Source: an uncultured Chloroflexota bacterium (GTDB taxonomy: Bacteria > Chloroflexota > Chloroflexia > Chloroflexales > Chloroflexaceae). From it: a stretch of DNA of 33,488 nt. Of the stretch, positions 194 to 26,298 are shown in pieces. The stretch is taken from NCBI GenBank assembly GCA_937120965.1, contig CAKZKA010000039.1:1-33488 (forward strand), in the 5' to 3' direction. The position numbers and the translations under genes were made by a program. The notes beneath the pieces were generated by a model. That model was not told the DNA's origin. It saw only the letters and a program-made list of their open reading frames with translations, and searched no databases. Each line of letters opens with the position of its first letter. Positions within the stretch are counted from its first letter, which is position 1.

Positions 194-3109
194 ATGACCA
201 TTCAGCCAGGCGTAACCCTGAACCAGCGGTACACCATTCGCCGCGCAATCAGCGAACAGGGCGGGTTCGGCGCCACCTATCTGGCCTTCGACACCGCTGA
301 GCGGCGCGAGGTGGTGATCAAGGTCAGCAAGACGGCGGGAGATATCGAGCAGAATGCGCTGCTGAGCGAACTTCAGGTGCTGAAGAGCCTGGAACATCCC
401 CGTTTGCCCCGGATGTACGACGGGTTCTTTCACCAGGGTCAGCTCTGCGTTGCTATGCAGTACATCCCTGGCCGCGATGTGTCGAGCTATGTGCTGCCCC
501 GCGGCCCCGATCGGCGCGCCGAGCCGCCTGACCGGCCCACCGCCCTGCGCTGGATCAGTCAGACTCTCGAGGCCCTCGCCTACCTCCACGCCCGGGGCAT
601 CGTCCATCGCGATGTCAAGCCCGCCAACCTGCGCGTGCACATGGAGACCGGCGAGATCTTTTTGCTCGATTTCGGCCTGTCTCAACCGATTGCGCAGGCG
701 GCCATCCGCGCCCATTCGCCACGCTTTTCGCCTCCCGAACAGTACGACCCCAACGCTATCCCCACCCCGGCTGGCGATGTCTACTCCGTCGGCGCCACCC
801 TGTACTTGCTCCTGACCGGCTACGAGCCGCCGTTTCGCGACGACCGCCACGATCGCACCGTGCGGCTCCCCAGTGAGGAGAGCCAGTCCATCCCCATCGA
901 ACTCGAACAGGTGGTGCTGAAGGCGATGAGCTACGATGTGGCCGATCGGTACCCCGACGCGCAGGCCATGCTCGATGAGTTGCGACGCCTCGGCTACGCC
1001 TGGCAGCCTGCGGTTCGGCCCGCCACCACCCCGACGCCGACCACCCTGCCAGCGCCGGAGCAGCCGGCTGCGACGGAACCCGATGCGCAGACCGGACCGA
1101 CCCGCGATACCGCAGCAATCCTGCCGATCGGCCAGACGATCAAGGAACGCTACCAGATCCGTGAATTGCTCAGCGCCCAGGGAGGCTTTGGCACCACCTA
1201 CCGCGCCTTCGATATTGAGCGCGGCCAGGAGGTCGTGATCAAGGCCAGCAAGACCACCGAAGACAGCAAGCAGGACGCCCTGCTCGAAGAGCGTGAACTG
1301 CTGCGTCAGCTCAGTCACGAGCGATTGCCCAGGGTCTACGATGCGTTTTTCTTCGACGGGCAACTCTGCGTTTCCATGGAGTACATCCGCGGGCGCGACG
1401 TGGCAAGCTATCTCCGCCAGGGTCCCCCCGATCTGCCCACCGCCCTGCGCTGGATGCGCCAGCTCCTCGAGGCCCTGACCTACCTCCACAGCCGCGAGAT
1501 TGTCCACTGTGACGTCAAGCCCGAGAATCTGCGCGTCCACCACCTCAGCGGCGAACTCTACCTGCTCGACTTTGGCATCTCGCAGCGCCACAACCGCATG
1601 GTCGTGCGCGGTTTCACGCGCCACTTTTCGGCCCCCGAGCAGCGCCGCCCGGGCGCGCCGATCACCCCGGCCGCCGATGTGTACGCCGCCGGGGCGGTGC
1701 TCTACAATCTGCTGGTGGGCGCGCCGCCACCCGATCGCGGCCCCGACGAGAGTAAGCCCCTTCTGCTGCCAACAGACGGGGCAACGGCGATCCCTTCCGA
1801 TCTGGAGCGGATCGTGCTCAAGGCACTCATGCCCAACCCGGCCGATCGCTACCCGCACGCCCGGGCTATGCTCGATGACCTGCGACGGGTGCGCCTGTCC
1901 ACACGCTCCTTCAGGCCCGCGCGCCTGCTCTGGGCCGGTCTGACCGTAGTGCTGGCCGTCAGCCTGGGGCTGGCCATCGTCAGCTTCGCCCGCCCCTTCG
2001 CGGGAGCGCCCGCGCCAGCAACGGGAGAGCCTGCGGCAGGGGTGGGAGTGTCTACGCCAACGCCATTCGCTGACCCGGTAGACGCCACGGCCACTCCGCC
2101 CCTCACCGGCAGCCCGGTTGCCGGCGCCGGCCCGACCCCGGTGGGAGCAGAGCCTGCCACTGTTGTCACTACCACCCCCGTCACAACCCCGACCATCGAC
2201 GGTGGTTCTGCCACGGCGCTTCCTCTGCCGTCCCTGATGCCCACCGATACGCCCCCCGCGCCCCCCTTCGTGGTGCAGCAGTTCGAGGTTCCCGATCAGG
2301 GCCAGCGTGACTCTGTCTTCGTAGGTCGGCTGCCGCTACAATTCACCCTGATCGGCGAACGACTGGACCTCATCAACACTGTCACCCTGCAACCCGCGCC
2401 GGCCAGCGACAGTCGCCCCGCCATCGGGCTGATCGTGCAGCGCGTCGAACCGGGCCGGATCGACCTGCGCCTCAACCGGCTGCCCGACGGCTTTCGCAGC
2501 GGCCAGTATGAACTGCTGCTCAATGGTCTGCCCACCGGCATATCCCTGCGGTTGCAGGATTACCTGCGCGAGAGCCGCATTCTCGGCATCAAGTACGATT
2601 ACCGTCACCTGGCTGCCATTCGACCTCTGCCCAGCTACCGCTTCCAGGGGCAGGACGTTCCCGGCCCGTTCGGGATGCTCTACCTGCGGCCCGACGAGTC
2701 ATCACGTGGCGGTTACCTGCGCAACGGCGATCTGCTGGAGATCCTCGACACGACCAGCCAGCCCGGCTGGTATCTGGTACGGGTGAAGCAAAACTTCGAC
2801 CCGAATCTGGTCGGCTACACGGGCTGGGTCCTGGCCTGGGTGGTGGAAGACACGCCCCCCGCGCCGCCTGAGCCAGGGGCCATCCAGGTCTCGTGGAACA
2901 TCCGCGGCGAGAAGGTTGAGAACGTGATCGAGGATCTGGCGCGGCGGGGCATTCCCCGCGAGAATATTATCGTGGACCTGCAAGACCGTGAGCGCATCCC
3001 CGACGTCTTCGACCGCTACAGGCCCAACCAGGTGGTCAGCTCCGAACCGCCGGAGGGCGGCTGGGTGCTGCCCGGCGGGCGCGTGGTGCTCGGCGTGCGC
3101 GCGCCGTAG
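194..3109 (+). CDS. Tandem double Ser/Thr protein kinase with membrane anchor and PASTA-like C terminus
   Basis: A 971-residue protein with two consecutive Hanks-type kinase domains (about 13-267 and 320-565). Each has a glycine loop (EQGGFGATY; AQGGFGTTY), a VAIK-type lysine (K43; K350), a catalytic loop and a DFG motif (159-161; 459-461). Domain 1 has canonical HRDVKPAN. Domain 2 has HCDVKPEN, so the arginine before the catalytic Asp is Cys, as in non-RD kinases. A hydrophobic helix at about 579-598 is followed by a Pro/Thr-rich segment and an extracellular region. The last 75 residues resemble one PASTA repeat, with EPPEGGWVLPGGRVVL. It is probably a membrane sensor kinase phosphorylating cytoplasmic proteins. 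The two kinase halves are clear paralogues, suggesting internal duplication. The ligand and substrates are unknown. Confidence 0.88.
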   Translation: MTIQPGVTLNQRYTIRRAISEQGGFGATYLAFDTAERREVVIKVSKTAGDIEQNALLSELQVLKSLEHPRLPRMYDGFFHQGQLCVAMQYIPGRDVSSYVLPRGPDRRAEPPDRPTALRWISQTLEALAYLHARGIVHRDVKPANLRVHMETGEIFLLDFGLSQPIAQAAIRAHSPRFSPPEQYDPNAIPTPAGDVYSVGATLYLLLTGYEPPFRDDRHDRTVRLPSEESQSIPIELEQVVLKAMSYDVADRYPDAQAMLDELRRLGYAWQPAVRPATTPTPTTLPAPEQPAATEPDAQTGPTRDTAAILPIGQTIKERYQIRELLSAQGGFGTTYRAFDIERGQEVVIKASKTTEDSKQDALLEERELLRQLSHERLPRVYDAFFFDGQLCVSMEYIRGRDVASYLRQGPPDLPTALRWMRQLLEALTYLHSREIVHCDVKPENLRVHHLSGELYLLDFGISQRHNRMVVRGFTRHFSAPEQRRPGAPITPAADVYAAGAVLYNLLVGAPPPDRGPDESKPLLLPTDGATAIPSDLERIVLKALMPNPADRYPHARAMLDDLRRVRLSTRSFRPARLLWAGLTVVLAVSLGLAIVSFARPFAGAPAPATGEPAAGVGVSTPTPFADPVDATATPPLTGSPVAGAGPTPVGAEPATVVTTTPVTTPTIDGGSATALPLPSLMPTDTPPAPPFVVQQFEVPDQGQRDSVFVGRLPLQFTLIGERLDLINTVTLQPAPASDSRPAIGLIVQRVEPGRIDLRLNRLPDGFRSGQYELLLNGLPTGISLRLQDYLRESRILGIKYDYRHLAAIRPLPSYRFQGQDVPGPFGMLYLRPDESSRGGYLRNGDLLEILDTTSQPGWYLVRVKQNFDPNLVGYTGWVLAWVVEDTPPAPPEPGAIQVSWNIRGEKVENVIEDLARRGIPRENIIVDLQDRERIPDVFDRYRPNQVVSSEPPEGGWVLPGGRVVLGVRAP

Positions 3110-4744: not shown

Positions 4745-6115
4745 TCACCGCATCGCGAGCCGCGGAAGGTCTACGAAGCGGCTAGCCCGCTCCCAGGCGG
4801 CCCGGTCGTGACCGAGCAACACGAGGAGGCGAACGAGCAACTCTTCCACCACCTCGGCGAACTGGCGATACTCGTCACGGGTGATCAGCCGATAGCCGTG
4901 GGCGAGGATTGAGGTATTGCGCGCGTCACTCCGCGCTTCGATCCGCCCAATGTCATACCCGCGCACGAGCGGATCGTCGAGCGCGGCCAGGAGCATATAG
5001 CCGACAAAGAGGCCAACGGCGCGGTCGGGCAGCCGATAAGGCCGGCGACGACCCTGCGCGCGTTGGACGTCCTCATAGCGATTTTCCAGATCGGGCTTGC
5101 GCTCTTGCGCAGCAGTGAAATCCGGTCGCTCACTCAACACGCCCCAGGTGGCCAGGCGATGCTGGCTGATCAATTCCAGGCAACGGTAGAGCAACAGCGC
5201 AGCGGTATCGTAGCGCCCCTGCGCCTCGCGGCGCTTCGCGCTGGCGTACAGCGAGCCAAGCAGCGCCAGCACCGCGTCGGGATTGGCGAGAGTTGCAAGC
5301 GCCTCGTCACCACGACTGGCGGCCTGGCGGGCCACCTGCTCCAGACGCTCCAGGGTTTGCGCCTGGATGGCGATGGTTGCGACAAGCTCACGCTCTTCAG
5401 GCACTAAGGAGAGGAACTCCTCCAGGCTAGCGCGCCCGGTCTTCAGGTCGAAGGCATCCCAGGCGCTATACGCAGCGGCAAGAGTCGCCAGCGCGGCATA
5501 ACGTGGCCCATCAGGCGGCGGCACGCGCCGCCCCAGGTCGGCAAAGATCCGCGCCGCATTGGCATAATCGTGCGCTTCGTAGAGGCGGGTCGCCTCAGCG
5601 GCCTCCAGGTCGCCAAAGACAATATACGGGTCGGGTGGCGGCGCAAGGTACTGGGAGCCTGGACGAGGCACCTTCCGCTCTGTACCATCGCCAGTACTGA
5701 CGTACTCGCTTTCGACGTAGAGCGCCGGAAGATTCAAGACATAGGCGGCCTTGGCCAGACCGATCGACATCGGCTTCGTACCGCCGGTCACATCAACCGC
5801 CAGACGCTCGCGCGGGAGATCGTTCCATGCCTCGATGATCTTGCGTAATGAGCGATAGATCTGCAAGGGATCAGTATGATCCTCATCGTAGCGCTGCCAG
5901 TTCTGCGGAGCGCTATCAAACCCAAGCTTGCGGGCCACATCATCGGGCATCTTTTGGGAGTCAGGCGTCAGCAAGAAGGCAACCCGCTGTGGTTCAAGCG
6001 CGCCGATCAACAGAGCAGCAGTGGTTGCCTGCAACGTGCCGGGAATGACCAGCCCGGCGAAGGTCGTTGAGTTACAGCGCTCCCGGAAGAGGCGCAATTC
6101 TTCGGCGAAGTCCAT
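4745..6115 (-). CDS. CARF-HEPN ribonuclease, Csm6-like (TIGR02710 family)
   Basis: A 456-residue protein. The N-terminal CARF domain (about 1-150) has the ligand loop DVTGGTKPM at 108-116. A helical middle region leads to a C-terminal HEPN domain with R399 and H406 in RNTSILAHG. This R-x6-H signature of metal-independent RNases is shared with Csm6/Csx1. It is expected to bind cyclic oligoadenylate made by the III-D Cas10 and then degrade RNA nonspecifically in the cytoplasm. The ATG at 6115 was chosen over longer in-frame starts because AGGAGG lies 5 bases before it and the upstream extension runs through an intergenic palindrome. It is first in a same-strand group with the membrane CARF protein and Csx15. 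Assignment to CARF-HEPN is firm; the cOA ring size is unknown. Confidence 0.88.
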   Translation of the reverse strand: MDFAEELRLFRERCNSTTFAGLVIPGTLQATTAALLIGALEPQRVAFLLTPDSQKMPDDVARKLGFDSAPQNWQRYDEDHTDPLQIYRSLRKIIEAWNDLPRERLAVDVTGGTKPMSIGLAKAAYVLNLPALYVESEYVSTGDGTERKVPRPGSQYLAPPPDPYIVFGDLEAAEATRLYEAHDYANAARIFADLGRRVPPPDGPRYAALATLAAAYSAWDAFDLKTGRASLEEFLSLVPEERELVATIAIQAQTLERLEQVARQAASRGDEALATLANPDAVLALLGSLYASAKRREAQGRYDTAALLLYRCLELISQHRLATWGVLSERPDFTAAQERKPDLENRYEDVQRAQGRRRPYRLPDRAVGLFVGYMLLAALDDPLVRGYDIGRIEARSDARNTSILAHGYRLITRDEYRQFAEVVEELLVRLLVLLGHDRAAWERASRFVDLPRLAMR

Positions 6116-6120
6116 ATTAG

Positions 6121-6126
6121 CCTCCT
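6121..6126 (-). promoter_or_regulatory. Shine-Dalgarno of the CARF-HEPN gene
   Basis: A perfect AGGAGG on the minus strand sits 5 bases before the ATG at 6115. It settles the start against a 75-codon longer open frame. Confidence 0.8.
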
Positions 6127-6154
6127 GGGATGGTACAATGGCGCAAGAGGGTGT

Positions 6155-6173
6155 AGGGAAACCAGGTTTCCCC
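6155..6173. repeat. Dispersed palindrome GGGGAAACC family, copy 2
   Basis: AGGGAAACCAGGTTTCCCC is a 19-nt palindrome with only the outermost base unpaired. It is followed by AAGCCCCTATC, similar to the flank after copy 4. It lies between the divergent CARF-HEPN and Uma2 genes. Confidence 0.85.
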
Positions 6174-6298
6174 AAGCCCCTATCTGTCTTGGAACCAACG
6201 GCAGCGAATTCCTTTCGTATCCTGTCGCAGAGCGGGGAAGCTGCACGGATGTTTCGTCGGATGACCCGCAGATTTGTTTCAACCCCCAGGACACGCCT

Positions 6299-6892
6299 AT
6301 GACCACCGACATCCTTCCCGTCGCCGGGCCGGTGACCCACCTGCCCCCACCCCCCGGCGGACGCTGGACGGTCGCCGACTATGAGCGCCTCCCCGACGAC
6401 GGCCAGCGCTACGAGCTAATCAACGGAGACCTGCGTATGGCGCCCGCGCCCACTCCTGGCCATCAACAAGCCAGTGGTCTGATCTTCTACTACCTGATGC
6501 AGCACGTGCAGTTCGCCGGCCACGGACGGGTCTTCACGGCGCCGATTGACGTGGAACTCGGCCCCACCACGGTGGTGCAGCCCGACCTTATCGTCATCCT
6601 CCGTGGCGGAGCGGCGACCATCACCGCGCAGCGCATCGTCGGCCCGCCCGACCTGGTGGTCGAAGTGGTCTCCCCCGGCACGGCCAGCTACGACCGGCGC
6701 GAGAAGCGCGACCTGTACGCCGCCGCGGGCGTGCGCGAGTACTGGATCGCCGACCCGGGCCACCGCGTCGTGGAACTGCTCACCCTGGCCGGCAAGCTCT
6801 ACCACGCCGAACATGTCTACCGCGGGCAGGCCGCCATTCCCTCCACGATCATCCCCAACTGGAACGTGCCGACCGAGCGCTTGTTCGGGTAG
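6299..6892 (+). CDS. Uma2-family (DUF820) PD-(D/E)xK nuclease-like protein
   Basis: A 197-residue protein with the complete Uma2 layout. It has YELINGDLRM near residue 38, then VQPDLIVI with D96, then the core PDLVVEVVSPGTASYDRREK with E122 and K136, then AAGVREYWIAD. These give the D...E-x-x...K arrangement of the PD-(D/E)xK fold. Uma2 proteins are multicopy in Chloroflexota and cyanobacteria and their substrates are mostly unknown. The gene diverges from the CARF-HEPN gene across a spacer with one dispersed palindrome and converges with the frameshifted HEPN gene. A nuclease role in defence or genome maintenance is plausible but unproven. Confidence 0.88.
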   Translation: MTTDILPVAGPVTHLPPPPGGRWTVADYERLPDDGQRYELINGDLRMAPAPTPGHQQASGLIFYYLMQHVQFAGHGRVFTAPIDVELGPTTVVQPDLIVILRGGAATITAQRIVGPPDLVVEVVSPGTASYDRREKRDLYAAAGVREYWIADPGHRVVELLTLAGKLYHAEHVYRGQAAIPSTIIPNWNVPTERLFG

Positions 6893-8139: not shown

Positions 8140-8826
8140 CTATCCCCCCCGCTTCGCCGCCCGGCGCACATCGAGAATAGTCCTGCCGCTGCGCGACTCA
8201 CGGATGCCTGTAACCTCCACACGCGCCTGGTCTTTGCCTACGGCAAACTTTGGCGTGTTTGCGTCACGTTTCAGCACAGCAATGACCCTGTCCTGGCTGT
8301 ACCCGGGCACTTCAATAGCGAAGTAGTTTTCATCACCCTCGATCACCTTACCGGTGAAAACGCTTCCCACCTGCAGCGCAACACCCGAAGCCGGCTTTGC
8401 CGGCGCTGCTGCGCTGCTCTGTGCAGGCGTCGCTTTCGCAGGCGTCGGAGCGGAGGGTTGTTTTGCCGCTGGTTCCGGCTGTGACGTGCCACCGCCGGCT
8501 ACCGGGCGCTTTGGCGCCTTTTCCGGGAACTCGCGGTAATAGCGCATCAGGCGAATGGCCCAGCCAAGCGTCCAGATCAGTTCCTCGTACTCCATGCCGC
8601 GCAAATGGCGCAGGCAGGCGTTTTGCAGGTCACGGTAATAGTCGAAGGTCTGGTTCGAGCGGATCACTGCCCGACCGTTACTCACCACTGCCTGCAAATA
8701 GTCGAACAGCGCCTTGCTGCTGCGCTGGCTGCGCACATACGCCAGGACCTTCTGCGCCTCGTTGTGATCCACCTGCGCGCCGGACAGGTCGGCGGCCAGG
8801 AGTTCGGCGGTTTGGAACGTGTTCAT
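8140..8826 (-). CDS. Unrecognised III-D operon protein: helical domain, Ala/Pro linker, OB/S1-like domain
   Basis: A 228-residue protein. Residues 1-100 are helical, with conserved-looking aromatic and basic positions (FDYYRDLQNACLRHL; IWTLGWAIRLMRYYRE), reminiscent of Csm2/Cas11 small subunits. Residues 105-147 form an Ala/Pro/Lys/Thr-rich flexible linker. Residues 152-222 read as a small beta barrel: VGSVFTGKVIEG, ENYFAIEVPGY, FAVGKDQARVEVTGI. The pattern is like an S1/OB fold with G-x-V-x-x-G-x-V and F-x-V-G motifs. It is the last gene of the operon, 6 bp after the preceding RAMP gene, so it is very likely co-expressed. A second small subunit tethered to an RNA-binding domain, or an accessory regulator, is possible. 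I do not recognise a named family and the fold calls are by eye. Confidence 0.6.
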   Translation of the reverse strand: MNTFQTAELLAADLSGAQVDHNEAQKVLAYVRSQRSSKALFDYLQAVVSNGRAVIRSNQTFDYYRDLQNACLRHLRGMEYEELIWTLGWAIRLMRYYREFPEKAPKRPVAGGGTSQPEPAAKQPSAPTPAKATPAQSSAAAPAKPASGVALQVGSVFTGKVIEGDENYFAIEVPGYSQDRVIAVLKRDANTPKFAVGKDQARVEVTGIRESRSGRTILDVRRAAKRGG

Positions 8827-8832
8827 ATCTCT

Positions 8833-9780
8833 TCAATAGCTCCTATCCGGGCACCTCCGTTCTCCGCGCGGCCAGCGCAGGATGTCGGCGAGGCGGTTGA
8901 GCTGGTCGTCGAGCACGAGTCGCTCGGCGCGCGCTGCGTCAATCAGCGGCTGGAGCGGTTGCAGAGCGGCGACTGCGTCGAAGTCGCGGTAACTTGCGCG
9001 CGGATCATCAATGGTGAGTTGCGGGTCGAGCACCTCTATAGTGCCCAGACAGACCGGTTTGCCGCCGCCGAGTTTGGGCCATAGCCGTGGCTTGCCGAGA
9101 CCCAGCGCAATCAGGATGAGACCCAGTTCGCCTTGTGTCAGGTTGTTGAAGTCCATGCGTAGACCGAAGCGACTCCCTGCATCGCAGGCTTCCAGCGGCA
9201 GGTCGCCTCTCGCCAGTTCGCCATGCATGTAGAACTTACGCCCCCGCGGTTGCTGTTCGTCTGAGTAGGTGTCACGCGGGCGGAAGAGTTGCGGCGTTGG
9301 TACGGTGATGATCTTCCCCTCGATCAGAACAGCGTCGGCAAAGCGCACCACACCCTGGTACCCCTGCGCGCCGAAGAGCCGCGCGGCAGGATCGAGTTGA
9401 TCGACCGAGCGCGATGGAAGTGTCTCGTCCGGTAAGGGTCGCGCCTTTGTGACGTGGACTGCCGAACGGCTGATGGCCTCGACGATGCTGCGGATACAAC
9501 CCTTGAGGGAGGTCCCTGGAATGGCGATCTTGCCGTTGACACGGAAGTGAGCCTTGATCAGGGGATACTTCGGATCACGGGTCTGCTCCAATAGTCCTGA
9601 GGCAACATGCACTGCCGAGCGTGCCACTATCGTCGCGCGCAGCACGCCGCTCAGGGTATCCGGCTGGTACCGGTGGTGTCCGACAGGTTTCGCCAGATCC
9701 TGCTGTCCCTCCAGCAATGGCACAAATGCATATGGTTTGGGCAGTGGGGGCTGGTTGCCGAACCGGTTACGTTCACTCAT
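8833..9780 (-). CDS. cas7: RAMP protein, Cas7-insertion-like (TIGR03986 type)
   Basis: A 315-residue protein. The N-terminal PYAFVPL at 16-22 is typical of the TIGR03986 RAMP family. It is followed by a Cas7/Csm3-like fold with IPGTSLKGCIRS at 87-98 and a glycine-rich KLGGGKPVCLGTIEV region near 238-253. Csm3 cleaves target RNA with an Asp two residues before a P-x-x-K/R-D segment. Here the matching position reads K71-Y72-P73-L-I-K, so the catalytic Asp appears absent and the subunit is probably structural. The ATG overlaps the csx19 stop by 8 bases. Position after csx19 matches the Cas7-insertion subunit of type III-Dv complexes. Confidence 0.78.
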   Translation of the reverse strand: MSERNRFGNQPPLPKPYAFVPLLEGQQDLAKPVGHHRYQPDTLSGVLRATIVARSAVHVASGLLEQTRDPKYPLIKAHFRVNGKIAIPGTSLKGCIRSIVEAISRSAVHVTKARPLPDETLPSRSVDQLDPAARLFGAQGYQGVVRFADAVLIEGKIITVPTPQLFRPRDTYSDEQQPRGRKFYMHGELARGDLPLEACDAGSRFGLRMDFNNLTQGELGLILIALGLGKPRLWPKLGGGKPVCLGTIEVLDPQLTIDDPRASYRDFDAVAALQPLQPLIDAARAERLVLDDQLNRLADILRWPRGERRCPDRSY

Positions 9781-10225
9781 TGTTCACTCCCGCGTAGCGT
9801 AGAAACTGTACAGCGCCGTTCGGCGCGTGATAAGTCAGGTACTTCAACGGGGGGTACTGGCCGCTCTGGATCATCTTGCGCTCGTGATGTTCGCGCGCCT
9901 CCCATCCCTCGACCAGGGTCTGCGCTCCTGCGATGCTGAGCGGCTGCTCACTGAGCGCCAGCACATCGTAGGCGCCGTCATCGCGGCGCTTCCAGCGCAG
10001 TTCGGCGCGCTCCGAAAAGATGTGGCCGAAGTCGCCGCGCAGATCGAGGTCCTCCAGTCTGCCCAGGGCCTTGATCGGGCGCAGATTGGCAGTTCCTTGC
10101 CCGGGGTCGAGGTCCCACAGCGCCGCGCCGCCAAAACTCCAGCAGGACAGACCGACAATCTCAGCAGCAAGCTGTTTCAGCTGCGCAGAGTCAAGCGGGC
10201 AGATACGGTACACATAGCCACTCAT
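9773..10225 (-). CDS. csx19: CRISPR-associated protein Csx19 (TIGR03984 family)
   Basis: A 150-residue protein with the family signature FGHIFSERAELRWKR at 66-80, preceded by SFGGAALWDLD and followed by short beta strands (YDVLALSEQ). Csx19 is a marker of subtype III-D and is a structural subunit of the III-Dv effector complex. The ATG at 10225 forms an ATGA overlap with the TGA of the upstream cas7 gene. This is strong evidence for this start over a 14-codon longer frame. Flanked by Cas7-type genes, it supports assigning the whole operon to III-D. Confidence 0.82.
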   Translation of the reverse strand: MSGYVYRICPLDSAQLKQLAAEIVGLSCWSFGGAALWDLDPGQGTANLRPIKALGRLEDLDLRGDFGHIFSERAELRWKRRDDGAYDVLALSEQPLSIAGAQTLVEGWEAREHHERKMIQSGQYPPLKYLTYHAPNGAVQFLRYAGVNNE

Positions 10226-11241
10226 AGCCCGATCTCCCTGCGCCAGGCGGGCATACATGCTCGCCACAGACTGCGCACCGCGTCATTGCCCCTCACATTC
10301 AGGCGCACGCCGAGGAATTCGTCTTCGGTGTACGTCATTCCTGCCGGCAAAGGAACCCGATCTTCTTCCGGCAGGGCATACGCGCGATAGGCGTCATCGG
10401 CGCAGAGTGCGCCCAGTCCAACCAGTTCGCTGGCTGTAGCGACACGCTTCCCGTTGAGCAGACGTATCTCTCCGTTGGTGAGGGTGCAGGTCGGGTAGGA
10501 GAGGCTCAACGCGGTGAATTCCACCTTCACCCGCCCCAAACCGCGTGACTTCCCGAAGCCAATCGCGACACGCCCCTCTGCCAGATCGCGCAGCGCCAGT
10601 CCAAGCAATGCAAATTGCGCCAGGGTTAGATTCTTGAAGTAGATGCTGGTACGAAACGTCCCGCTTACAACCGTTTCGTAGTTGAACGGACCAACTGCTA
10701 CCGAGCCGTAGATGCGGTCAATTGCCACCCCGTTGCGTTGCTCGACCTCGAGTTTTCCTTCGGGGTAAGCGTCGGCGAAGCGCACCCGCCCGGCCAGGCT
10801 GGTGTGGCCGAAGATCTGGCTCACGAACGAGGAACGGCGGTAGATTACGGCTGTGCGATCCGCTCCCTTCAGATTCATGCCCTCAATCGCCCGGCCCGAG
10901 CTGTAGTTCATATCGTCAAGCCCGTTGTAGCAGGTGCCCGCGCCAAGAGGGTTATCGGCCAGCGGCACAATCGGTTCATCCTGGCTCAGCCGGCGACGAT
11001 ACGCCTGACGCGCCTGTTGCAATTGTTCGCTGTCGAGCGAGCGGCAGATGCGTTCGCATTGGGCGCGCACGACCCCCTTGAGCGACGGACCGGGGATGTA
11101 AATCTGCCCCCGGCTGCGCACGAATTCCATATCGGGCAGAGTCGGGTCGGCGCCGCCGGTCTCCCCCGCTTTGATCAGGATCGGTCCGTCGGGGGTAATG
11201 GAAAAATCAATCGTTCCTTCGAGAAAGGTCGCTTTGTGCAT
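10222..11241 (-). CDS. cas7: Cas7/Csm3-like RAMP backbone subunit (third of operon)
   Basis: A 339-residue RAMP. It contains YIPGPSLKGVVR at 49-59 and the glycine-rich loop IGFGKSRGLGRV at 227-238. TLPDMEFVR holds D37 where Csm3 has its catalytic Asp, so target-RNA cleavage is predicted. It is longer than simple Csm3 (about 220 residues) because of an insertion at about 70-135 and a C-terminal extension of roughly 90 residues. It follows the preceding cas7 gene by 6 bp and overlaps csx19 by 4 bases. Together with the preceding gene it occupies the place of the fused Cas7-2x protein in III-Dv loci. Confidence 0.8.
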   Translation of the reverse strand: MHKATFLEGTIDFSITPDGPILIKAGETGGADPTLPDMEFVRSRGQIYIPGPSLKGVVRAQCERICRSLDSEQLQQARQAYRRRLSQDEPIVPLADNPLGAGTCYNGLDDMNYSSGRAIEGMNLKGADRTAVIYRRSSFVSQIFGHTSLAGRVRFADAYPEGKLEVEQRNGVAIDRIYGSVAVGPFNYETVVSGTFRTSIYFKNLTLAQFALLGLALRDLAEGRVAIGFGKSRGLGRVKVEFTALSLSYPTCTLTNGEIRLLNGKRVATASELVGLGALCADDAYRAYALPEEDRVPLPAGMTYTEDEFLGVRLNVRGNDAVRSLWRACMPAWRREIGL

Positions 11242-11247: not shown

Positions 11248-12054
11248 TTACTCCCTCGCTGTTGCAGTCGCGCGGCGCTGCAATTCATCACGGAAGGCAC
11301 GCTTCCAGGAGCTCACCTGCTCTTCGGTCGGCTCGTGACTGCCGCTTCCGTCGAGAAAGGCGAGCAGACTGTCAGCATCGCCAGCGTGTAATTCGACGTA
11401 GTCACGCCGGACGCGCTCCAGGCGCACGTGCCCTAACCCACGGGTGCGAAAACCGCCGATCTGCATTTCGCCGCGTTCCCAGGGTTGCAATGCAAGCAGC
11501 ACCATGCCGAGTTGCCAGTCGGCGGCATTCTCCAGCGTCAGCTCAAAATCGAAGCGTGTGCCTGCCGGAACCACTTCATAATCGTACAGCAGCCCCTGCT
11601 CGACCGACTCGGTGTCGCGGTTGAGCGCCACGCCGTTACGCACCTCAAACTGGCCAAACCAGAGTTCCGGCTTCACCAGCGCGTCCTTGAAGAAGATCCG
11701 TCCGGCGATCCAGGGCGCGCCGAAGGTCAACTCGATCATGGTCGACTCGCGCCAGATGTCTGCATCCTTCTTCTCTGCCATGCCCTGACGCATCACATTT
11801 TCGATCTCCTTCAGATCACGCGCCTGGTCGGGCGCAACACTGTGGATCAACGCCTCGACGCGGGCACGGAAGGCGCCCTTGAGCGATGCACCCGGGATAA
11901 ACGGCGCACCCAGCGCGTCACGCAATACCGGCAGATCATTAGCGACAACACCGGTATCCCGACCTGCGCCAATGCGCAGACCGGTCAACGCTGTCAGTTC
12001 ACCGCGCACGGTCAGGCGGTTGCGCAGCGCCTCGAAGGAGTATTCATCAGCCAT
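11248..12054 (-). CDS. cas7: Cas7/Csm3-like RAMP backbone subunit (second of operon)
   Basis: A 268-residue RAMP. GRDTGVVANDLPVLRD places D40 exactly where Streptococcus Csm3 has D33 (IDSPVIKD). It is followed by PFIPGASLKGAFR (51-63) and the glycine-rich IGGFRTRGLGHV (199-210). It is predicted to bind crRNA and cleave target RNA at 6-nt intervals as other Csm3 proteins do. The ATG at 12054 overlaps the stop of the Cas11-like gene by 8 bases and is preceded by GGGGGA; this favours it over a frame 15 codons longer. An acidic C-terminal extension follows the core fold. Confidence 0.85.
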   Translation of the reverse strand: MADEYSFEALRNRLTVRGELTALTGLRIGAGRDTGVVANDLPVLRDALGAPFIPGASLKGAFRARVEALIHSVAPDQARDLKEIENVMRQGMAEKKDADIWRESTMIELTFGAPWIAGRIFFKDALVKPELWFGQFEVRNGVALNRDTESVEQGLLYDYEVVPAGTRFDFELTLENAADWQLGMVLLALQPWERGEMQIGGFRTRGLGHVRLERVRRDYVELHAGDADSLLAFLDGSGSHEPTEEQVSSWKRAFRDELQRRATATARE

Positions 12055-12532
12055 TGGCGTTCCCCCGTAGCCGCTTAAAGTCACCTGTTTTTTTACCATA
12101 GTAGAATGCCCGGTTGAGATAGCCGAGGTAGAGCTGCATCAGGCGCACATAGGCGGTCTGGTGTAGCGTCTCAGCCTCAGGCGCGTCGGGCATGTTCTTC
12201 TTTACGTGTTTTTCGACAGTGCCGGCAAGCTGGTTCACCGTCTCACGCAAATCCCGAATCACGGTATGGCCGAACTCATTATCTCCGCGCCCCCATTTGT
12301 CCTTCTCGCGGGCGATCTGGTAGCGAATAAAGTTGATCACCACCTCCGGCGAGCCTGAGGTGACAGCGACGTTAAGCAGGTTGCGCAACTGGTTTTCCTC
12401 CATTGCTGTTCTTTCGAGCAGAGCAGCCGTCTGGTTCGCCTGCCGGACCAGCGCGTCGAGTTGCTTATCAATTGCCGCTTCCAGCAACAGATTACGGCGC
12501 AGGATTTTCGGATCCAGCACATCAATGCTCAT
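12047..12532 (-). CDS. cas11: Small alpha-helical effector subunit, Cas11-like
   Basis: A 161-residue protein, almost wholly helical by composition. It contains ENQLRNLLNVAV, EVVINFIRYQIAREKDKWG and VRLMQLYLGYLNRAFYYG, and no enzymatic motif. Position between csx10 and a cas7 gene, size, basic character and a C-terminal R/Y-rich helix fit the small subunit that lines the target-RNA channel. In III-Dv loci the equivalent domain is the C-terminal part of a Cas7-Cas5-Cas11 fusion, in the same order as here. Sequence similarity of Cas11 proteins is weak, so the call leans on context. Confidence 0.65.
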   Translation of the reverse strand: MSIDVLDPKILRRNLLLEAAIDKQLDALVRQANQTAALLERTAMEENQLRNLLNVAVTSGSPEVVINFIRYQIAREKDKWGRGDNEFGHTVIRDLRETVNQLAGTVEKHVKKNMPDAPEAETLHQTAYVRLMQLYLGYLNRAFYYGKKTGDFKRLRGNANG

Positions 12533-12541: not shown

Positions 12542-13693
12542 TTAGCGTAGATGAAACTCATCACAGATGCGTATCTGACCATATCCCTCGGCGCGGCGTT
12601 CGCCGATGCCGTCGATCTGGAGTTGCGCCAGACGCTGGCAGCCTTCTTCGGTGAGCGGTCGGTTGGTCTGGAACACATACAGCCCTCCCATCGCCACTGC
12701 CACGCCAGTCGGTTTGGGGCGCTGCCAGAGCGTGTGCCAGCCGCCGACGAGTTTAGTGGTGGTGAAGGCGCGCAGCAGGGTTGCTTCGATGCCGGTCAGC
12801 TCCTTGAGCTGCCCGGCGCTCAGTTCCTGCGTCGGCAGCCAGCCATGTTCGAGCAGGATGACGTCAGCCAGCAGATTGATGGTAAAGATACTCCCCTCAA
12901 TCGACCACGGCGCGCCGCCAAGGCCCTCGTACAGCCTGGCCTGCTCGCGGAAGCGCCGCGTCATTGTTTCGACCCGCTGCAGCACCTGCCGCGCATCTTC
13001 GGGAGCGACAATGGTCTCGGGCGTTTCGACCCGAACCGCTCCTAACCCACTGGTCTGCCGTCCACCCAGATGGGTGATCCGGGTGAGCGCGCTGCGTACC
13101 TGCGCCTCAGCGAACGGCGGGAGCGCCACGCTGCCGCGGAAGCGGGTTGGAACGCGCTGCTTATTCGCTTCCGTCGTTTCACGGATCGCCAGCAGCGAGT
13201 AGAGGCGCTGCTCCTGAGCAGTACCACGCCGCCGGTTGATCGCCACACGGGTCAGGATGCGCTGTTGGACACTGCGATACTGAAGGTTGCCATCGCGTAT
13301 CGTGTACAACTTCGATCCCACAGCCTCCCAGGGTCGTCCATCGTTGTCGGCAGGCGCATAGATCAGGGCAGGAGGTTGTTGCTGTTCCCAGCAGACGCGC
13401 GCGTAGAGCGAGTCGCGAACATCGTCCGTCCGCTCTGCACCTTTGGGCTGGATGGCGGTTGCCGGAAGCGGACGCACCCAGGCATCGCCCTGGTGTACTG
13501 GATAGGCATTGCAGCAGCGGATGGCGCGGAACAGCGCCTCATCGAAGTTCTGCGCACCCAGAATCTGCCCCAGCGCACCGAAGATCGCCCCGCCGGGCAC
13601 GTAGGGCAGGCTGGCGTTGAACTGCGTGCCGGGCTTGCGCTCGGGGAAGGCGAGCGGCGCCACGGCCTCGAGATCAAAGGTGAGTAGCAACAT
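12542..13693 (-). CDS. csx10: Csx10, Cas5-type RAMP of subtype III-D
   Basis: A 383-residue protein. Near the N terminus YVPGGAIFGALG (31-42) is the RAMP glycine segment. The C terminus GIGERRAEGYGQIRICDEFH is the Csx10 signature, a glycine-rich loop ending in a conserved F-H. The protein is expected to cap the 5' tag of the crRNA and contact Cas10. The start forms a TAATG overlap with the upstream cas7 gene. Csx10 together with Csx19 defines the subtype. No frameshift or missing motif was seen. Confidence 0.85.
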   Translation of the reverse strand: MLLLTFDLEAVAPLAFPERKPGTQFNASLPYVPGGAIFGALGQILGAQNFDEALFRAIRCCNAYPVHQGDAWVRPLPATAIQPKGAERTDDVRDSLYARVCWEQQQPPALIYAPADNDGRPWEAVGSKLYTIRDGNLQYRSVQQRILTRVAINRRRGTAQEQRLYSLLAIRETTEANKQRVPTRFRGSVALPPFAEAQVRSALTRITHLGGRQTSGLGAVRVETPETIVAPEDARQVLQRVETMTRRFREQARLYEGLGGAPWSIEGSIFTINLLADVILLEHGWLPTQELSAGQLKELTGIEATLLRAFTTTKLVGGWHTLWQRPKPTGVAVAMGGLYVFQTNRPLTEEGCQRLAQLQIDGIGERRAEGYGQIRICDEFHLR

Positions 13694-14370
13694 TACCGGC
13701 CTCCGCCGCGTTCAACCAGGGCGCGCACATCCTTGCGCAACTGGTCGGCGCTTCGTTCCTGACCATCCACCCACACCTGCGCCGTAACCTCAGCCCACCC
13801 CAGACCGCGTGATTTGGCGCCGCCCCAGCGGGTGCTCAGACTGGCAGCGATCCAGAGTAGCGCCACGTGATCAAGGCTATCAACTCTGCCTCTGATGGCG
13901 CGCTCTGAATAAAAACGGGTCGTCTCCAGGGCGGTTTCCTGAAAGACCAGGAGCTTATCGGCAGCCGTGCGGCGCTGGCGGTCGAGGGCGACCGAAGGCC
14001 GGATGTGGCTGTGGCGCTGCTCTGGACTGTCGCGCAGCGATTCCATCTGCGCCGGGTCGCCGATCACCCCGGGCAGATCGGCGAAGAAGAGCGGCGAGCG
14101 GTGTTGCGTACTGCCGAACAGTTGCCGTACCAGCGTATCCATTTCCTCGCGCTGCGCTCCCTCGAACGGCGTCGGAATATCCTGCCCCAGACCACGCAGC
14201 AGTTGCTCGGCGGCCCAGCGCAGCTTCCCTTTGACCTGCGAGCCGGGGATGATCGGGCGGCCCCAGCCGTCACGGACGATGCTCTTGTCGGCCAGCGTAC
14301 CGACGCTGCTTCCTGCCCCGACGCTGACCGGCGTGCGGCTGGTGATGGTCAGTGCGATCTGTAGCTCCAT
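13693..14370 (-). CDS. cas7: Cas7/Csm3-like RAMP backbone subunit (first of operon)
   Basis: A 225-residue protein of standard Csm3 length. TLADKSIVRDGWGRPIIPGS puts D28 at the catalytic Asp position, followed by QVKGKLR. The C-terminal glycine-rich loop is GGAKSRGLGW (183-192). The middle segment HSHIRPSVALDRQRRTA matches the R-x-x-V-A-I/L-D-R region of Cas7 proteins. The start codon shares one base with the cas10 stop (TAATG), and the stop does the same with csx10. This implies tight translational coupling and fixed stoichiometry. Cleavage-competent backbone subunit predicted. Confidence 0.87.
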   Translation of the reverse strand: MELQIALTITSRTPVSVGAGSSVGTLADKSIVRDGWGRPIIPGSQVKGKLRWAAEQLLRGLGQDIPTPFEGAQREEMDTLVRQLFGSTQHRSPLFFADLPGVIGDPAQMESLRDSPEQRHSHIRPSVALDRQRRTAADKLLVFQETALETTRFYSERAIRGRVDSLDHVALLWIAASLSTRWGGAKSRGLGWAEVTAQVWVDGQERSADQLRKDVRALVERGGGR

Positions 14371-16592
14371 TATGCCTCCGCCACAGGTGGTTTCGCTCCG
14401 GGCGCTTCCGGCGCAGTCTGGATCTGGCTGTCGGTCTCTACAAACTCGTAGGCCTCCAGCACATCGGGCCAGATCGTCTCATAGCTCGCTGTACTCTTCC
14501 TGGCAGGCGGGTCCTTCGACCAGGGCAACCAGGGCGGCATGCCATTGCGTTGCCGCGCGCCGTTCGACGAACGACGCCAGGCATTTTCGATGTGGGTCAG
14601 CAGGATTTCATTGAGCGGCTTACCGATGCGGGCACGGGTGTACAGGTACTCTATGGTGCTGGCGAGCACGCTGTCACCCTGATCCTTATCAAGGACCCGG
14701 CGCAGGCGATAGAGTTGCGACAGCGGCATCCGGGCCTGCTTGAACGCGCGCACCGTCGCCAGGAAGCCGGCAAACTCGGCCCAGGCATACGGGCGGGCAG
14801 TCAGGCGGCGCGCGCTTTCCTTGTGGTCACCGAGCGCCTCTCTGCGGAACGCCGTGATGTCGTCGCTGACCATCGTGATTGATTTCATCACCATAAAGTC
14901 AACCGCGCCGCCAAAGAAGTTCTGCTTCGCTTGATGTTTGGCCAGTTTCTTCGCCCGCTTCAGCAATTCCTCCACCCGGTCGCGCAGGAAGAAGAACGGC
15001 GTGTTCTCCTGAGCGATCAGCACACCCGCCGAGAGTCCGACGGAAGGCATAAAATCGCGCAGCGCGCGCGCCGTATCGTCAGCGCCGGCGTAGCGCATCG
15101 AGATGGGCTGTGAGGCAGAGACGGACAACCCGATGGACGGCGCCAGACGTTCAAAGCGTCCGGTCAACTCCTTCTCAAAGGTCTGGGCAATCGTCAGTGC
15201 AATATCAAACGCCTTGCTACCGGGCACGACGATGAACAGATCATCGCCGCCGATGGTCAAAATCTCGAACGGGTGGACATAGCGTAGTTTCCTGGTCTCC
15301 TCGTCCTGCGCCTCGACCGGCCTGAGATGCTGCGCCAGCGCGCTGAAGACCGCATGTTGTGCAACGTCGCTTAAAGCCCGTGAAACGGCGTGATACGCCA
15401 TTGGTGTGCCCAGGGTTGCCATGAGGCGACCGATGTTGTTGCCATCGGCGTAGATCAGGCCAATGTAGCGGCGCGGATCGGAGGCAGATGCAATATCGGC
15501 AAGATCCTTAGCCGATGGAACTTCTTTACCCAGCAGCGCCCTAGCGTAGTCGGTCGTCTTGCCCTCTTCGCTCCCAAGATACTCCCGCCAGCGTTGCTTC
15601 CAAGTATCTCTCTCTGGATCGACCGGCACCGTCCAGGGCGCCAGCCTGGAAGCCAGGTCGCCGACTTCAACACCCTTGACCTCTCGCCCAACCGCCAGTT
15701 TACGCGCCGAAGGTTCACTGAGCGGGCGTTTATCATCACCGACTCTCGCCACCACCACAGCGGGGCGCACATCGCTGCTCCTGCACTTCTCGGCCCACGG
15801 CATCAATTCGTAGTGCGGCAGATAACGCGGTTCGCCGTGACTGGCGCGCTCATCGCGCCGGCGGTTAAACATGGTTGCCAGTACCGTCACCAGTTCGCCG
15901 AAGGTCTTGCGGTTGAAGAAACGTTTGCGCAAGGCCTCGCTGGTCGTGTCCTCGGGGTCAATTCCCTCAGGGGGGTAGTAGTACGCCAGCAGGGCGGCGC
16001 GTTTGCGCTCGTCCTGGCAATCCCGGAGGAAGGAGTCTACCCAGTATGGCGCTCCCACCTGGCCCTGCGGGTAGAGGCGTCCGTAGCGCAGTTCCAGCAG
16101 ATTGAAGCTGGCGGCCACCGCCACGCTGTTGGCGGTGAGCGTCTGGCTGATGTACTCGCGCTCGACGGCGGTTGCCAGCGCAGGCGCCAGTTCTGCCGGG
16201 GCAAACGCCAGGAACGAGCCGCCGCCAGCGTAGATGATATACGGGTGAGGTTCATCATCCGGGATCGCCACCGGCAGATGGTCGCGCCAGATTCGGTTGA
16301 CGCCCTGCTCACCCACCCAGTCGAGCAGGGCGCTGGCCCCTCGGATCTCCGGCAGCTTGGGGGCTTCGAAGACGTACCCTTTGATCTTCGTCGCTCCGCC
16401 GTAGACCAGGCCGATCGGCTGGCGGGCCAGCGGGTCGGCGTCGATTCGCCGCTGCATCTCCAGGAGCTCGTCCAGCGCACATGCCGCGGGCATCCGCAGC
16501 ACCTCGCTCACTAGATTGACGAGCGCTGGCGGCGCGTCGGGATGGGCCAGACACCGGGCGATCTCCAGCGCAAAGTCGCGAAGTTCAGTCAT
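14370..16592 (-). CDS. cas10: Cas10 large subunit, GGDD-type, subtype III-D
   Basis: A 740-residue protein. The first palm region carries KIKGYVFEAPKLPEIRGASALLDW (69-92) and AGGGSFLAF. The second palm has YADGNNIGRL (381-390) and IGGDDLFIV with GGDD at 448-451, so cyclic-oligoadenylate synthesis is predicted. No HD nuclease motif precedes the first palm, so DNA cleavage by Cas10 is unlikely. The usual four-cysteine zinc ribbon is degenerate: KCRSSDVRPAVVV (C270) and LSEPSARK (292-298) retain only one of four expected Cys. The C-terminal third is helical (Cas11-like D4 domain expected). It is the first gene of the operon; the next gene overlaps by one base. The ribosome site before the ATG is weak. 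Confidence 0.9.
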   Translation of the reverse strand: MTELRDFALEIARCLAHPDAPPALVNLVSEVLRMPAACALDELLEMQRRIDADPLARQPIGLVYGGATKIKGYVFEAPKLPEIRGASALLDWVGEQGVNRIWRDHLPVAIPDDEPHPYIIYAGGGSFLAFAPAELAPALATAVEREYISQTLTANSVAVAASFNLLELRYGRLYPQGQVGAPYWVDSFLRDCQDERKRAALLAYYYPPEGIDPEDTTSEALRKRFFNRKTFGELVTVLATMFNRRRDERASHGEPRYLPHYELMPWAEKCRSSDVRPAVVVARVGDDKRPLSEPSARKLAVGREVKGVEVGDLASRLAPWTVPVDPERDTWKQRWREYLGSEEGKTTDYARALLGKEVPSAKDLADIASASDPRRYIGLIYADGNNIGRLMATLGTPMAYHAVSRALSDVAQHAVFSALAQHLRPVEAQDEETRKLRYVHPFEILTIGGDDLFIVVPGSKAFDIALTIAQTFEKELTGRFERLAPSIGLSVSASQPISMRYAGADDTARALRDFMPSVGLSAGVLIAQENTPFFFLRDRVEELLKRAKKLAKHQAKQNFFGGAVDFMVMKSITMVSDDITAFRREALGDHKESARRLTARPYAWAEFAGFLATVRAFKQARMPLSQLYRLRRVLDKDQGDSVLASTIEYLYTRARIGKPLNEILLTHIENAWRRSSNGARQRNGMPPWLPWSKDPPARKSTASYETIWPDVLEAYEFVETDSQIQTAPEAPGAKPPVAEA

Positions 16593-16839: not shown

Positions 16840-17823
16840 TCACACATGCGCCACCTGTACACGGCCGTGGCCGAAGACGCACGCCTTGCCGACGTGGAGC
16901 ACACTGGCCGCGAGGAGGGCCGCGCGCACCGCGGGCGGCACCTCGCGCAGCGTTGCGCTGCCGATGAGTCCGCCGAGCTTCATGGCGCGCTGCTGGCCGC
17001 CGCGCGTGCTGGTGCGCTCCCAGTCGGCCCAGCGCAGGTCGGCGCGCTCGATGCGCACTGCCCGCGCCGCCTCGACCAGTGGACGGTAGTCGGCGCTCCA
17101 CGCGCCTGGCCCGTGAAAGATGGCCAGCGCGCCGATGCGCCAGCAGATCGCCTGCACGATCGCCGCCAGGTCCAGGTGCTCGATGAAGACGCCGCGGGCC
17201 TTGACCCGCAGGGGTGTGGGCAGCTCCAGGCGCAGGTCGGCGGCCAGATTGGCGGCGTGGACGGGCAGCTCAGCCAGGTTGAGCAGCGGTAGCTCCGCCG
17301 GCTCGCGCACCTGCCCATCCTGGTAGAGCGGCACGCCCACCGGGCGGAAGGGTTCCAGGATCTCCACGCGCTCCAGGCGCGCCCGCGCCCGGGCATGGCC
17401 CAGGCCGGCCACGCCCAGATCCGCAAAACCCACCAGAAAGTAAGGCAGAAAATCGATGCCCCGCCCGATCAGGATCAGCCCGAACTCCAGGCTGTCGCCG
17501 GCGGCGTAGTGGCGCTTGTGGTCCAGCGGCGGCTCGATCACGAAGGGGCGCGGCACGTCTTGCAGATCGTGCAACTGGGGAACACCTTCAGGATGCGGTG
17601 TCTCAAAGACCCAGCGGTAGGAGCAGAGTAGCGTCGCTGTGCAACGCTCGGCGTGGCCCCAGCAGACGCGGGGGCACGAGGCGCGCTGAAAGGCGTAGCC
17701 GAAACCGCCGCGCAGCAGCGCGCCCTTGAAGGGCCGCAGGGTCGTTGCCTCCAGCAGGCGGTAGCTGATTCGCGCCCGCAACACCGAGAGCGGCGGAAAC
17801 GTCTGCGGAGTCTCAACCGTCAC
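16840..17823 (-). CDS. cas6: CRISPR pre-crRNA processing endoribonuclease Cas6
   Basis: A 327-residue RAMP. The C terminus GGLIGSATLREVPP...LHVGKACVFGHGRVQV carries the glycine-rich loop (H310 to R321) diagnostic of Cas6. Near the N terminus four cysteines (C50, C54, C61, C67) in a C-x3-C-x6-C-x5-C pattern precede YRWVFET, as in the Chloroflexota/cyanobacterial Cas6 group. The enzyme cuts repeat RNA to give crRNAs. It is on the same strand as and 247 bp upstream of cas10, so it may be a separate transcript. It presumably serves an array outside this window. Confidence 0.88.
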   Translation of the reverse strand: MTVETPQTFPPLSVLRARISYRLLEATTLRPFKGALLRGGFGYAFQRASCPRVCWGHAERCTATLLCSYRWVFETPHPEGVPQLHDLQDVPRPFVIEPPLDHKRHYAAGDSLEFGLILIGRGIDFLPYFLVGFADLGVAGLGHARARARLERVEILEPFRPVGVPLYQDGQVREPAELPLLNLAELPVHAANLAADLRLELPTPLRVKARGVFIEHLDLAAIVQAICWRIGALAIFHGPGAWSADYRPLVEAARAVRIERADLRWADWERTSTRGGQQRAMKLGGLIGSATLREVPPAVRAALLAASVLHVGKACVFGHGRVQVAHV

Positions 17824-24281: not shown

Positions 24282-24965
24282 CTACTCCCCATCAACGAAA
24301 TGGTAGGCTGGCCAGGGTCCGGTGCACAACAAACGCACATCCGGATTGGCCTGGCCCAGGGCCACAATGGCGACGCGGAAGGTGTCGAGGGCCTCGCGCG
24401 GGATCAGGTAAGCAGCACTGAGCAGGACCCGTTCGTGTGGCAGTACCTGGCGGACGTGGGCGACGGCCAGGTGGTCCAGCACCGCGTGGAGGGCGTCAGC
24501 CCGCTTATGGGCCTCGCGCAGCCGCGCCTCTCGAGCCTGCTCCTCAGCCATACGGCGCGCCAGATAGGCGCGTCCGTTTTCGTCGGCTGCCGGGCGTGGC
24601 GCCGATACGACCGGGGTTGCCGGCCAGAGCACGCGCACGCTTACCTCAACGCGCCCGGCCACACGGGCCAGTCCGGCCATGAAGCGGTCATAGCGTTCGC
24701 GCAGGAGCATGGTCAACGCTGCTTCGTCGGCGAGCAGGGCGCCGTAGCGCACCGGGAGCACGCTGTGGCGATCAAGGAGCGCTTCCACCACCGCCTCGTG
24801 ACGCCAGAGTTGCGCCACTTCGATCCGCGGGGCAGCGCCGTGGTACTGGCTGTATACCGCTGCGATGTCACCCCGCTCGCCGCATTGCACCGCCTGTTCG
24901 GCGAGCCCGCGGAGCGGCGGCAGTGGTGTGACGGGGCGGTTGATGATGGCGTACAGGTAAAGCAT
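24282..24965 (-). CDS. gvpF/L: GvpF/GvpL family gas vesicle protein (third copy)
   Basis: A 227-residue protein. It opens MLYLYAIINRPV with the family's Y-x-Y-A/G-I strand, has the VLPVRYGALLADE motif and closes with TGPWPAYHFVDGE, the GvpF/L terminal signature (G-P-W-P-x-Y-x-F). GvpF/L proteins bind GvpA and help nucleate or cap vesicles. It is the shortest of the three paralogues in the cluster. It follows the gvpJ-like gene by about 120 bp and directly precedes gvpK. Confidence 0.9.
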   Translation of the reverse strand: MLYLYAIINRPVTPLPPLRGLAEQAVQCGERGDIAAVYSQYHGAAPRIEVAQLWRHEAVVEALLDRHSVLPVRYGALLADEAALTMLLRERYDRFMAGLARVAGRVEVSVRVLWPATPVVSAPRPAADENGRAYLARRMAEEQAREARLREAHKRADALHAVLDHLAVAHVRQVLPHERVLLSAAYLIPREALDTFRVAIVALGQANPDVRLLCTGPWPAYHFVDGE

Positions 24966-25085: not shown

Positions 25086-25424
25086 TTAGCTGCGATCACG
25101 CGCTTCAGCAGCGTCCGCGCAGGCGCGGCGATGGGGTTGCTGCGCTGCGGAAGACGGGCGCTGCGCCAGCGCAGATGATTGGTCCACCTCCGAAGGAAGG
25201 GCATGGAAGGGTTGCTCAGATGCCGCGCGCAGCGTCGGGCCACCCGCGCGCATGGCCTCCAGGTTGTCCACCGAGGTAAGCAGCAGGCGCAGACCCAGGT
25301 AGATCAGATCAACATTGGCAACGGAGATGGTGATGTCGCCACTGATGATCACGCCCTTGTCGAGAATCCGATCAAGCAGATCAAGCAAGGTTACGTCACG
25401 CTCAGCAAGCAGATGTTCACGCAT
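25086..25424 (-). CDS. gvpJ: GvpJ/GvpS-like minor gas vesicle shell protein
   Basis: A 112-residue GvpA-superfamily protein. The core LLDLLDRILDKGVIISGDITISVANVDLIYLGLRLLLTSVDNL (about 14-56) is closest to the GvpJ/M/S group (GDI-I-S-V-A-x-V-D-L-I-Y), not to the major shell GvpA. A low-complexity Ala/Arg/Gln-rich tail of about 50 residues follows. The start overlaps the upstream gvpF/L stop by 8 bases. A role in vesicle tip or initiation is inferred from family knowledge. Confidence 0.88.
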   Translation of the reverse strand: MREHLLAERDVTLLDLLDRILDKGVIISGDITISVANVDLIYLGLRLLLTSVDNLEAMRAGGPTLRAASEQPFHALPSEVDQSSALAQRPSSAAQQPHRRACADAAEARDRS

Positions 25425-26247: not shown

Positions 26248-26255
26248 ATTCGTTA

Positions 26256-26259
26256 CTCC
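26256..26259 (-). promoter_or_regulatory. Shine-Dalgarno of gvpF/L copy 2
   Basis: GGAG on the minus strand is 8 bases before the ATG at 26247. It fixes the start downstream of the repeat pair. Confidence 0.65.
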
Positions 26260-26279
26260 GTACACTGAGGTGAACATAT

Positions 26280-26298
26280 GGGGAAACCAGGTTTCCCC
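26280..26298. repeat. Dispersed palindrome GGGGAAACC family, copy 5
   Basis: GGGGAAACCAGGTTTCCCC, perfect arms. The sequence before it, GTGAACATAT, is the exact reverse complement of the flank after copy 3. The flank after it (ATGCCCCTGCCTGCCGGGGCG) matches copy 4. The conserved unit is therefore longer than 19 bp. Confidence 0.9.

Follow-up and report, generated by a model that had tools for sequence, protein, structure and literature searches.

The csx21-family gene closing a type III-D operon of an uncultured Chloroflexota bacterium most likely encodes a core subunit of the III-D effector, in which a domain of Cas11 fold is combined with a tethered S1 domain acting at the crRNA 3' end; we hold this reading with slightly better than even confidence. 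Its standing as an extra subunit of the complex we infer from fold, linkage and S1 exchange. New here are the Cas11 fold of Csx21, its core status within its clade, and the repeated exchange of its S1 domain with the tails of Cas7-insertion proteins.

Architecture of Csx21 and its operon

The window, i.e. the whole stretch of 33,488 nucleotides analysed here, contained a complete III-D operon, with all genes on its minus strand in the order Cas6, Cas10, Cas7, Csx10, Cas11, Cas7 (Csx7), Cas7, Csx19, TIGR03986-like Cas7 and csx21 (Table 1). Cas10, Csx10 (Cas5-III-D) and Csx19, which together mark a type III-D effector, were all present, and csx21 lay within this type III operon, as expected for Csx21. 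A separate Cas11-like gene was found as well, as the earlier note had pointed out. Beyond csx21 were encoded a CARF-HEPN ribonuclease, a CARF-TM protein and Csx15.

Table 1. Features of the III-D locus and domains of its Csx21 protein (window coordinates)
Feature	Coordinates	Strand	Evidence
Cas6	16840..17823	-	PADLOC PDLC01477 6.8e-83
Cas10	14370..16592	-	PADLOC Cas10 2.6e-70
Cas7-group subunit	13693..14370	-	RAMPs 4e-19
Csx10 (Cas5 group of III-D)	12542..13693	-	TIGR02674 1.1e-50
Canonical Cas11 (Csm2-like), 161 aa	12047..12532	-	PADLOC PDLC01011 (Csm2) 5.9e-42
Cas7-group subunit (Csx7)	11248..12099	-	TIGR02581 8.8e-47, over curated cut-off
Cas7-group subunit	10222..11241	-	RAMPs 1.2e-24
Csx19	9773..10267	-	PADLOC PDLC01555 2.4e-45
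TIGR03986-like Cas7 without insertion, 315 aa, neighbour of csx21	8833..9780	-	TIGR03986 5.3e-35, two stretches
csx21-family gene, 228 aa	8140..8826	-	ORF; PADLOC Csx21 models 1.1e-34, 8.2e-32, 1.4e-31; AF2 model
Predicted five-helix Cas11-fold domain, residues 1-100	8527..8826	-	Foldseek and VIA on domain modelled alone
Flexible Ala/Pro/Lys-rich linker, residues 101-148	8383..8526	-	low AF2 confidence, variable length
Predicted S1/OB barrel with basic tail, residues 149-228	8143..8382	-	profile matches, VIA, charge
CARF-HEPN ancillary RNase (Csm6/Csx1 family)	4745..6340	-	TIGR02710 1.8e-83

Elsewhere in the window, a gas-vesicle-like cluster could be read from the sequence downstream (24282-24965, 25417-26421, 29678-30454, 31329-32429 and 30508-31017), with GvpF/L-like proteins, a GvpN-like ATPase and a small heat-shock-like protein. 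A single ORF at 194-3109 comprised two tandem halves, called serine/threonine kinase-like by eye, which lay ~900 nt apart and shared 70-73% DNA identity.

The csx21 ORF was intact, displayed an ATG start and was located 6 nt downstream of the preceding Cas7 gene. Searches of its product in Pfam and NCBIfam assigned no family, and PADLOC models for Csx21 (PDLC01042, PDLC01516, PDLC01485, PDLC01083 and PDLC01524) matched it at 1e-34 to 2e-9, over nearly its full length or over the N-terminal domain. The protein thus belongs to a named, uncharacterised family, whose PADLOC entry is labelled only 'type III-D / III-A associated', without fold or function, and whose name was not found in the literature searched. 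The earlier note had envisaged a known III-D accessory family with an assigned role as an objection to its reading; the family exists, and its entry gives no role.

A model of the protein built with AF2 from a 57-sequence alignment (mean pLDDT 86.5) consisted of two domains predicted with confidence and a disordered linker between them. Five helices were predicted within residues 2-99 (2-16, 21-34, 37-53, 58-75 and 80-99) and a five-stranded barrel within residues 156-222 (strands 156-164, 168-172, 181-186, 200-210 and 216-222). Confidence was low from ~104 to 148, with pLDDT values of 47-55 for residues ~111-150, and linker length varied from 13 to 74 aa across homologues. These limits agreed within a few residues with the division proposed earlier from the sequence, namely a helical domain of ~100 residues, an Ala/Pro linker of ~45 residues and an S1/OB-like barrel; the structure prediction called for at that time returned the same three parts, the C-terminal one being predicted to fold as an OB domain.

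The helical domain modelled alone reached a pLDDT of 94.2. Foldseek placed chains E, B, C and A of 8bmw at ranks 1-4 (prob 0.99-1.00), with an E-value of only 0.14. The paper on this entry (PMC9945777) identifies chains A-E as SSO1424, the sole product of cas11 in the S. solfataricus III-D complex. In VIA, residues 1-106 displayed a fold like that of this protein (8bmw_E, Saccharolobus III-D Cas11), with Z 10.5, 2.6 A and 96 aligned residues at 15% identity; SSO1424 differs from Csx21 in having neither linker nor S1 domain and in coming from an operon with a single Cas11 gene. The ten best VIA entries were all type III small subunits from several species, 8bmw being followed by Cmr5 of Thermus, Archaeoglobus and Pyrococcus (Z 7.9, 7.8, 7.4, 7.2 and 7.1) and by Csm2 (Z 6.8). 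The first unrelated chain appeared at Z 6.0, and the Cas10 C-terminal domain of III-Dv at Z 5.4. With the whole model, the single best match was again 8bmw_E, against residues 1-109 (Z 10.7). Since mostly helical models often score Z 13-14 by chance, a Z of 10 for a helical bundle is weak by itself, and the claim of a Cas11 fold is carried by the unanimous list of small subunits.

Profile-profile comparison (hhalign) of Csx21 with the Cas11 of the same operon was not significant, and a profile search of the helical domain against PDB matched no small subunit by sequence. Of the separate profile searches of both domains suggested in the earlier note, that of the C-terminal part matched S1 and that of the helical part gave no significant Cas11 match; the Cas11-like features it had attributed to the helical domain were borne out by the predicted fold. 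The same comparison led us to reject the idea that Csx21 duplicates the operon's Cas11, fold alone connecting the two proteins. Conservation across homologues was high in the helical half, with A11, N22, E23, K26, R32, T60, L75, W89 and Y96 invariant. Taken together, computation supports a Cas11 (type III small-subunit) fold for the N-terminal half of Csx21 as modelled, its tie to Cas11 being one of fold only. As the protein has 228 aa and bears a linker and an S1 domain, and is not a stand-alone all-helical protein, 'Cas11-fold' is preferred here to 'a Cas11'.

Distribution and retention of the family

Homologues were gathered first with a PADLOC model in Chloroflexota and then, independently of the PADLOC models, by scanning 84,980 genomes for degenerate peptide patterns. 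The latter search yielded 68 homologous loci, distributed over Chloroflexota, Cyanobacteria and Poribacteria. Conservation of architecture and operon position in these loci excludes chance as the source of the observed architecture. The C-terminal domain was usually kept; it was different or missing in L043, L044/L048 and L074 (L numbers designate loci), and the homologue of L140 consisted of the N-domain only. Viral contigs searched for Csx21 relatives as carriers yielded none.

In all 66 loci possessing both genes, Csx21 was the next cas gene after Cas7ins. The median gap was ~12 nt and the distance did not exceed 150 nt in 48 of the 66, for which reason strict adjacency was dropped as a description; in the more distant loci, 17 of which were inspected, mostly other, non-cas genes stood in between. 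A separate Cas11 was encoded in each of the 49 loci with Cas10, Cas7ins and Csx21, making Csx21 an additional Cas11-fold protein.

The slot between Cas7ins and Csx21 was itself of varied content. In four related III-D operons it harbored peptidase genes (L035:1775-2926, L038:8728-9498, L044:4704-5909 and L033:885-2615), three of them trypsin-like (PF13365, 2.4e-13 to 1.9e-6) and one encoding a CHAT protease-like protein (1.3e-15), which are possible protease effectors. Schlafen/AlbA_2 proteins occupied it in three others (L029:8862-9974, L031:8707-9858 and L045:2679-4001; 6e-14 to 2e-10), AAA_15 in L032 and Uma2 in L076.

The cyanobacterial survey was started from TIGR03986 (339 genomes), to avoid the bias of a Csx21-based start. 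Csx21 followed the Cas7 gene in 26 out of 26 loci with insertion-less Cas7, a 27th, decayed locus displaying Csx21 fragments, and none of the 21 loci with inserted Cas7 had it within ~1.5 kb. A tree built for 157 Cas7ins proteins showed Csx21 in one well-supported clade. On the other side of the tree stood the inserted Cas7 proteins together with 11 that lacked both the insertion and Csx21, and many Cas7 proteins from Chloroflexota had neither of the two. A subclade of otherwise similar operons (L128, L135, L137 and L138) possessed Cas11 and lacked Csx21, which is thus dispensable there; a fifth case, L164, probably reflects a contig break, as the Csx21 of that genome was found at the end of another contig. 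The gene is core within its clade, with near-universal retention, and this is demonstrated here for the first time.

Model PDLC01042 also gave 120-162 bits with an unrelated protein, Ala-rich and phasin-like, that is encoded beside a ferritin-like gene. Its matches in L006, L019, L020, L021, L022 and L025 were dropped as unrelated; the model can therefore yield false Csx21 calls.

The S1 domain and its occurrence on Cas7-insertion proteins

For the C-terminal domain, the family profile matched Rrp5 (4.9e-8), ribosomal S1 (7.5e-5) and also the S1 domain of PNPase. PF00575 was matched by 12 of the 57 homologues (best 1.9e-4), the protein studied here not being among them. In VIA, the five-stranded S1/OB barrel aligned with many S1 domains at Z 8-9.5 over ~70 residues, and the structure search with the whole model was dominated by S1 domains (ribosomal S1, NusA, PNPase, eIF2alpha and Rpb7). 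The modelled C-terminal domain is thus assigned to the S1/OB fold, an assignment backed by sequence too. Binding of single-stranded RNA by this predicted S1 domain may be envisaged, the one feature favouring it being its positive net charge (+4).

The S1 half alone was searched against all ORFs and was recovered at the extreme C-terminus of III-Dv-type Cas7-insertion proteins, at residues 700-773 of L118 (9e-15) and 689-765 of L122 (1e-14), with a weaker match in L114. In Cyanobacteria, the tail of the Cas7-insertion protein of Anabaena cylindrica (L166) matched at 4.5e-21 and was 57% identical to a cyanobacterial Csx21 over 83 residues, part of the linker included; further tails were found in L189 and, more weakly, in L176. 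Chloroflexota tails resembled Chloroflexota Csx21 and the cyanobacterial tail resembled cyanobacterial Csx21. A tree built from 94 S1 domains placed the L118 tail as sister to the S1 domain of the L039 Csx21 (support 100/98), and its starred branches forced at least four carrier changes; finer counts would be unsafe, the alignment having only 76 columns. Computation on these sequences supports that the same S1 domain was repeatedly exchanged, partly in a lineage-matched manner, between Csx21 and the C-terminal tail of Cas7-insertion proteins, an observation that is new here. Csx21 and the terminal Cas7 subunit thus seem to have in common a role for a tethered OB domain that binds RNA.

One Chloroflexota Cas7-insertion protein (L113:1072-3435, minus strand) had as its C-terminal tail, in place of S1, a full cold-shock domain at residues 725-786 (PF00313 7.4e-17, above cut-off). 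The genome of the window itself possessed a second TIGR03986 system on contig C62 (L146:4873-7359), with a full Cas7-insertion protein (829 aa); the tail of this protein has an S1-like appearance and is similar to the Csx21 S1 domain of L049 (1e-5).

Relatives of the Synechocystis III-Dv Cas7-insertion protein (8S9T chain E) differ from the present operon in that the tethered C-terminal S1 domain, where they bear it, is fused to Cas7, with no separate Csx21 gene found nearby. In the Synechocystis protein itself there is neither an S1 tail nor a recognisable S1 domain; a Csx21 or S1 domain hidden in its unresolved N-terminal 112 residues was also considered and gave no match. Makarova et al. 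(2011, PMC3150331) had already described 'two distinct fusions' of S1 domains in type III operons with Csx10, i.e. in the same operon type and with the same kind of domain as here. The main text of that paper names no partner, fold or role and does not mention exchange; Csx21 and the Cas7-insertion fusions may be the two meant. The gene, whose architecture the earlier note had put forward as new, was already on record as PADLOC Csx21, and S1 fusions in such operons had been described in 2011; its Cas11 fold is new. None of the type III complexes in the literature searched has a Cas11-fold subunit bearing a tethered RNA-binding domain.

Proposed position and role in the effector complex

In the structure of the Synechocystis III-Dv complex, the insertion domain of the Cas7-insertion protein holds six exposed crRNA 3' bases, which are the seed (PMC11026444). 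That Cas7-insertion proteins can bear the S1 domain of Csx21 as a tail is, together with this placement of the insertion, the main reason to locate Csx21 there, and the earlier suggestion that the protein might hold the crRNA 3' end gains support from it. The Cas11-fold domain would dock next to the terminal Cas7, which lacks the insertion, on the minor filament, and the linker of ~45 residues would let the S1 domain reach and bind single-stranded RNA near the crRNA 3' end. The RNA bound would mainly be the transcript flanking the protospacer, so that targets would be captured faster at the 3' seed; the crRNA 3' end may be bound as well. Which RNA is bound is the least certain part of this proposal, transcript capture near the 3' seed being most likely and clamping of the crRNA 3' end next.

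Csx21 might also be a cap, its Cas11 domain closing the filament and its S1 domain clamping the protruding crRNA 3' end, to protect or measure it, in place of the III-Dv Cas7 insertion. The exact complementarity between Csx21 and inserted Cas7 in Cyanobacteria speaks for such a cap, as does the hold of the III-Dv insertion on the same end (PMC11026444). The exclusion, however, tracks one deep split of the Cas7 tree and is close to a single observation; the Chloroflexota Cas7 proteins with neither feature argue against simple replacement, and S1 tails on inserted Cas7 proteins indicate that S1 is not simply the substitute of the insertion. Replacement was accordingly retained only as a rival, and we consider the cap unlikely. 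A separate, non-stoichiometric ancillary protein would bind operon mRNA or ribosome-associated transcripts through S1 and touch the complex only transiently through its Cas11-like domain. S1 domains are general mRNA and ribosome binders, and the genes intervening between Cas7ins and Csx21 would fit such looser linkage; near-universal retention in the clade, the short median gap and the fact that a structural Cas7 subunit can carry this S1 domain as a fusion oppose it and make this explanation rather improbable.

The Cas11 fold would equally suit a protein taking one of the ordinary Cas11 positions along the filament, with S1 assisting release of the cleaved target, and Cas11 copy number does differ among type III complexes (PMC9945777). 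Such an alternative small subunit is nevertheless improbable given a dedicated Cas11 gene in every locus counted and an S1 exchange that points to the Cas7ins end and not to mid-filament. From the high chance scores of helical models, the Foldseek E-value and the lack of sequence similarity to the operon's Cas11, one could argue that the N-domain is an unrelated adaptor, resembling Cas11 only as any helical bundle might; this appears very improbable, because a search blind to the operon returned type III small subunits of different species as all ten best entries.

A general III-D design, not described before, may tentatively be proposed. In it, a mobile RNA-binding OB module (S1, once cold-shock) would be held by a long tether at the crRNA 3' end, be borne by either Csx21 or the Cas7-insertion tail and swapped between them, and serve as a fishing arm with which targets are caught faster at the 3' seed. 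If this is true, III-D complexes own a second small subunit with a specialised task and, near the 3' seed, an RNA-binding arm that can move. Csx21, an uncharacterised and nonetheless core family, would gain a fold and a position, and how III-D effectors find and hold transcripts would become directly testable by deletion or swap of single domains.
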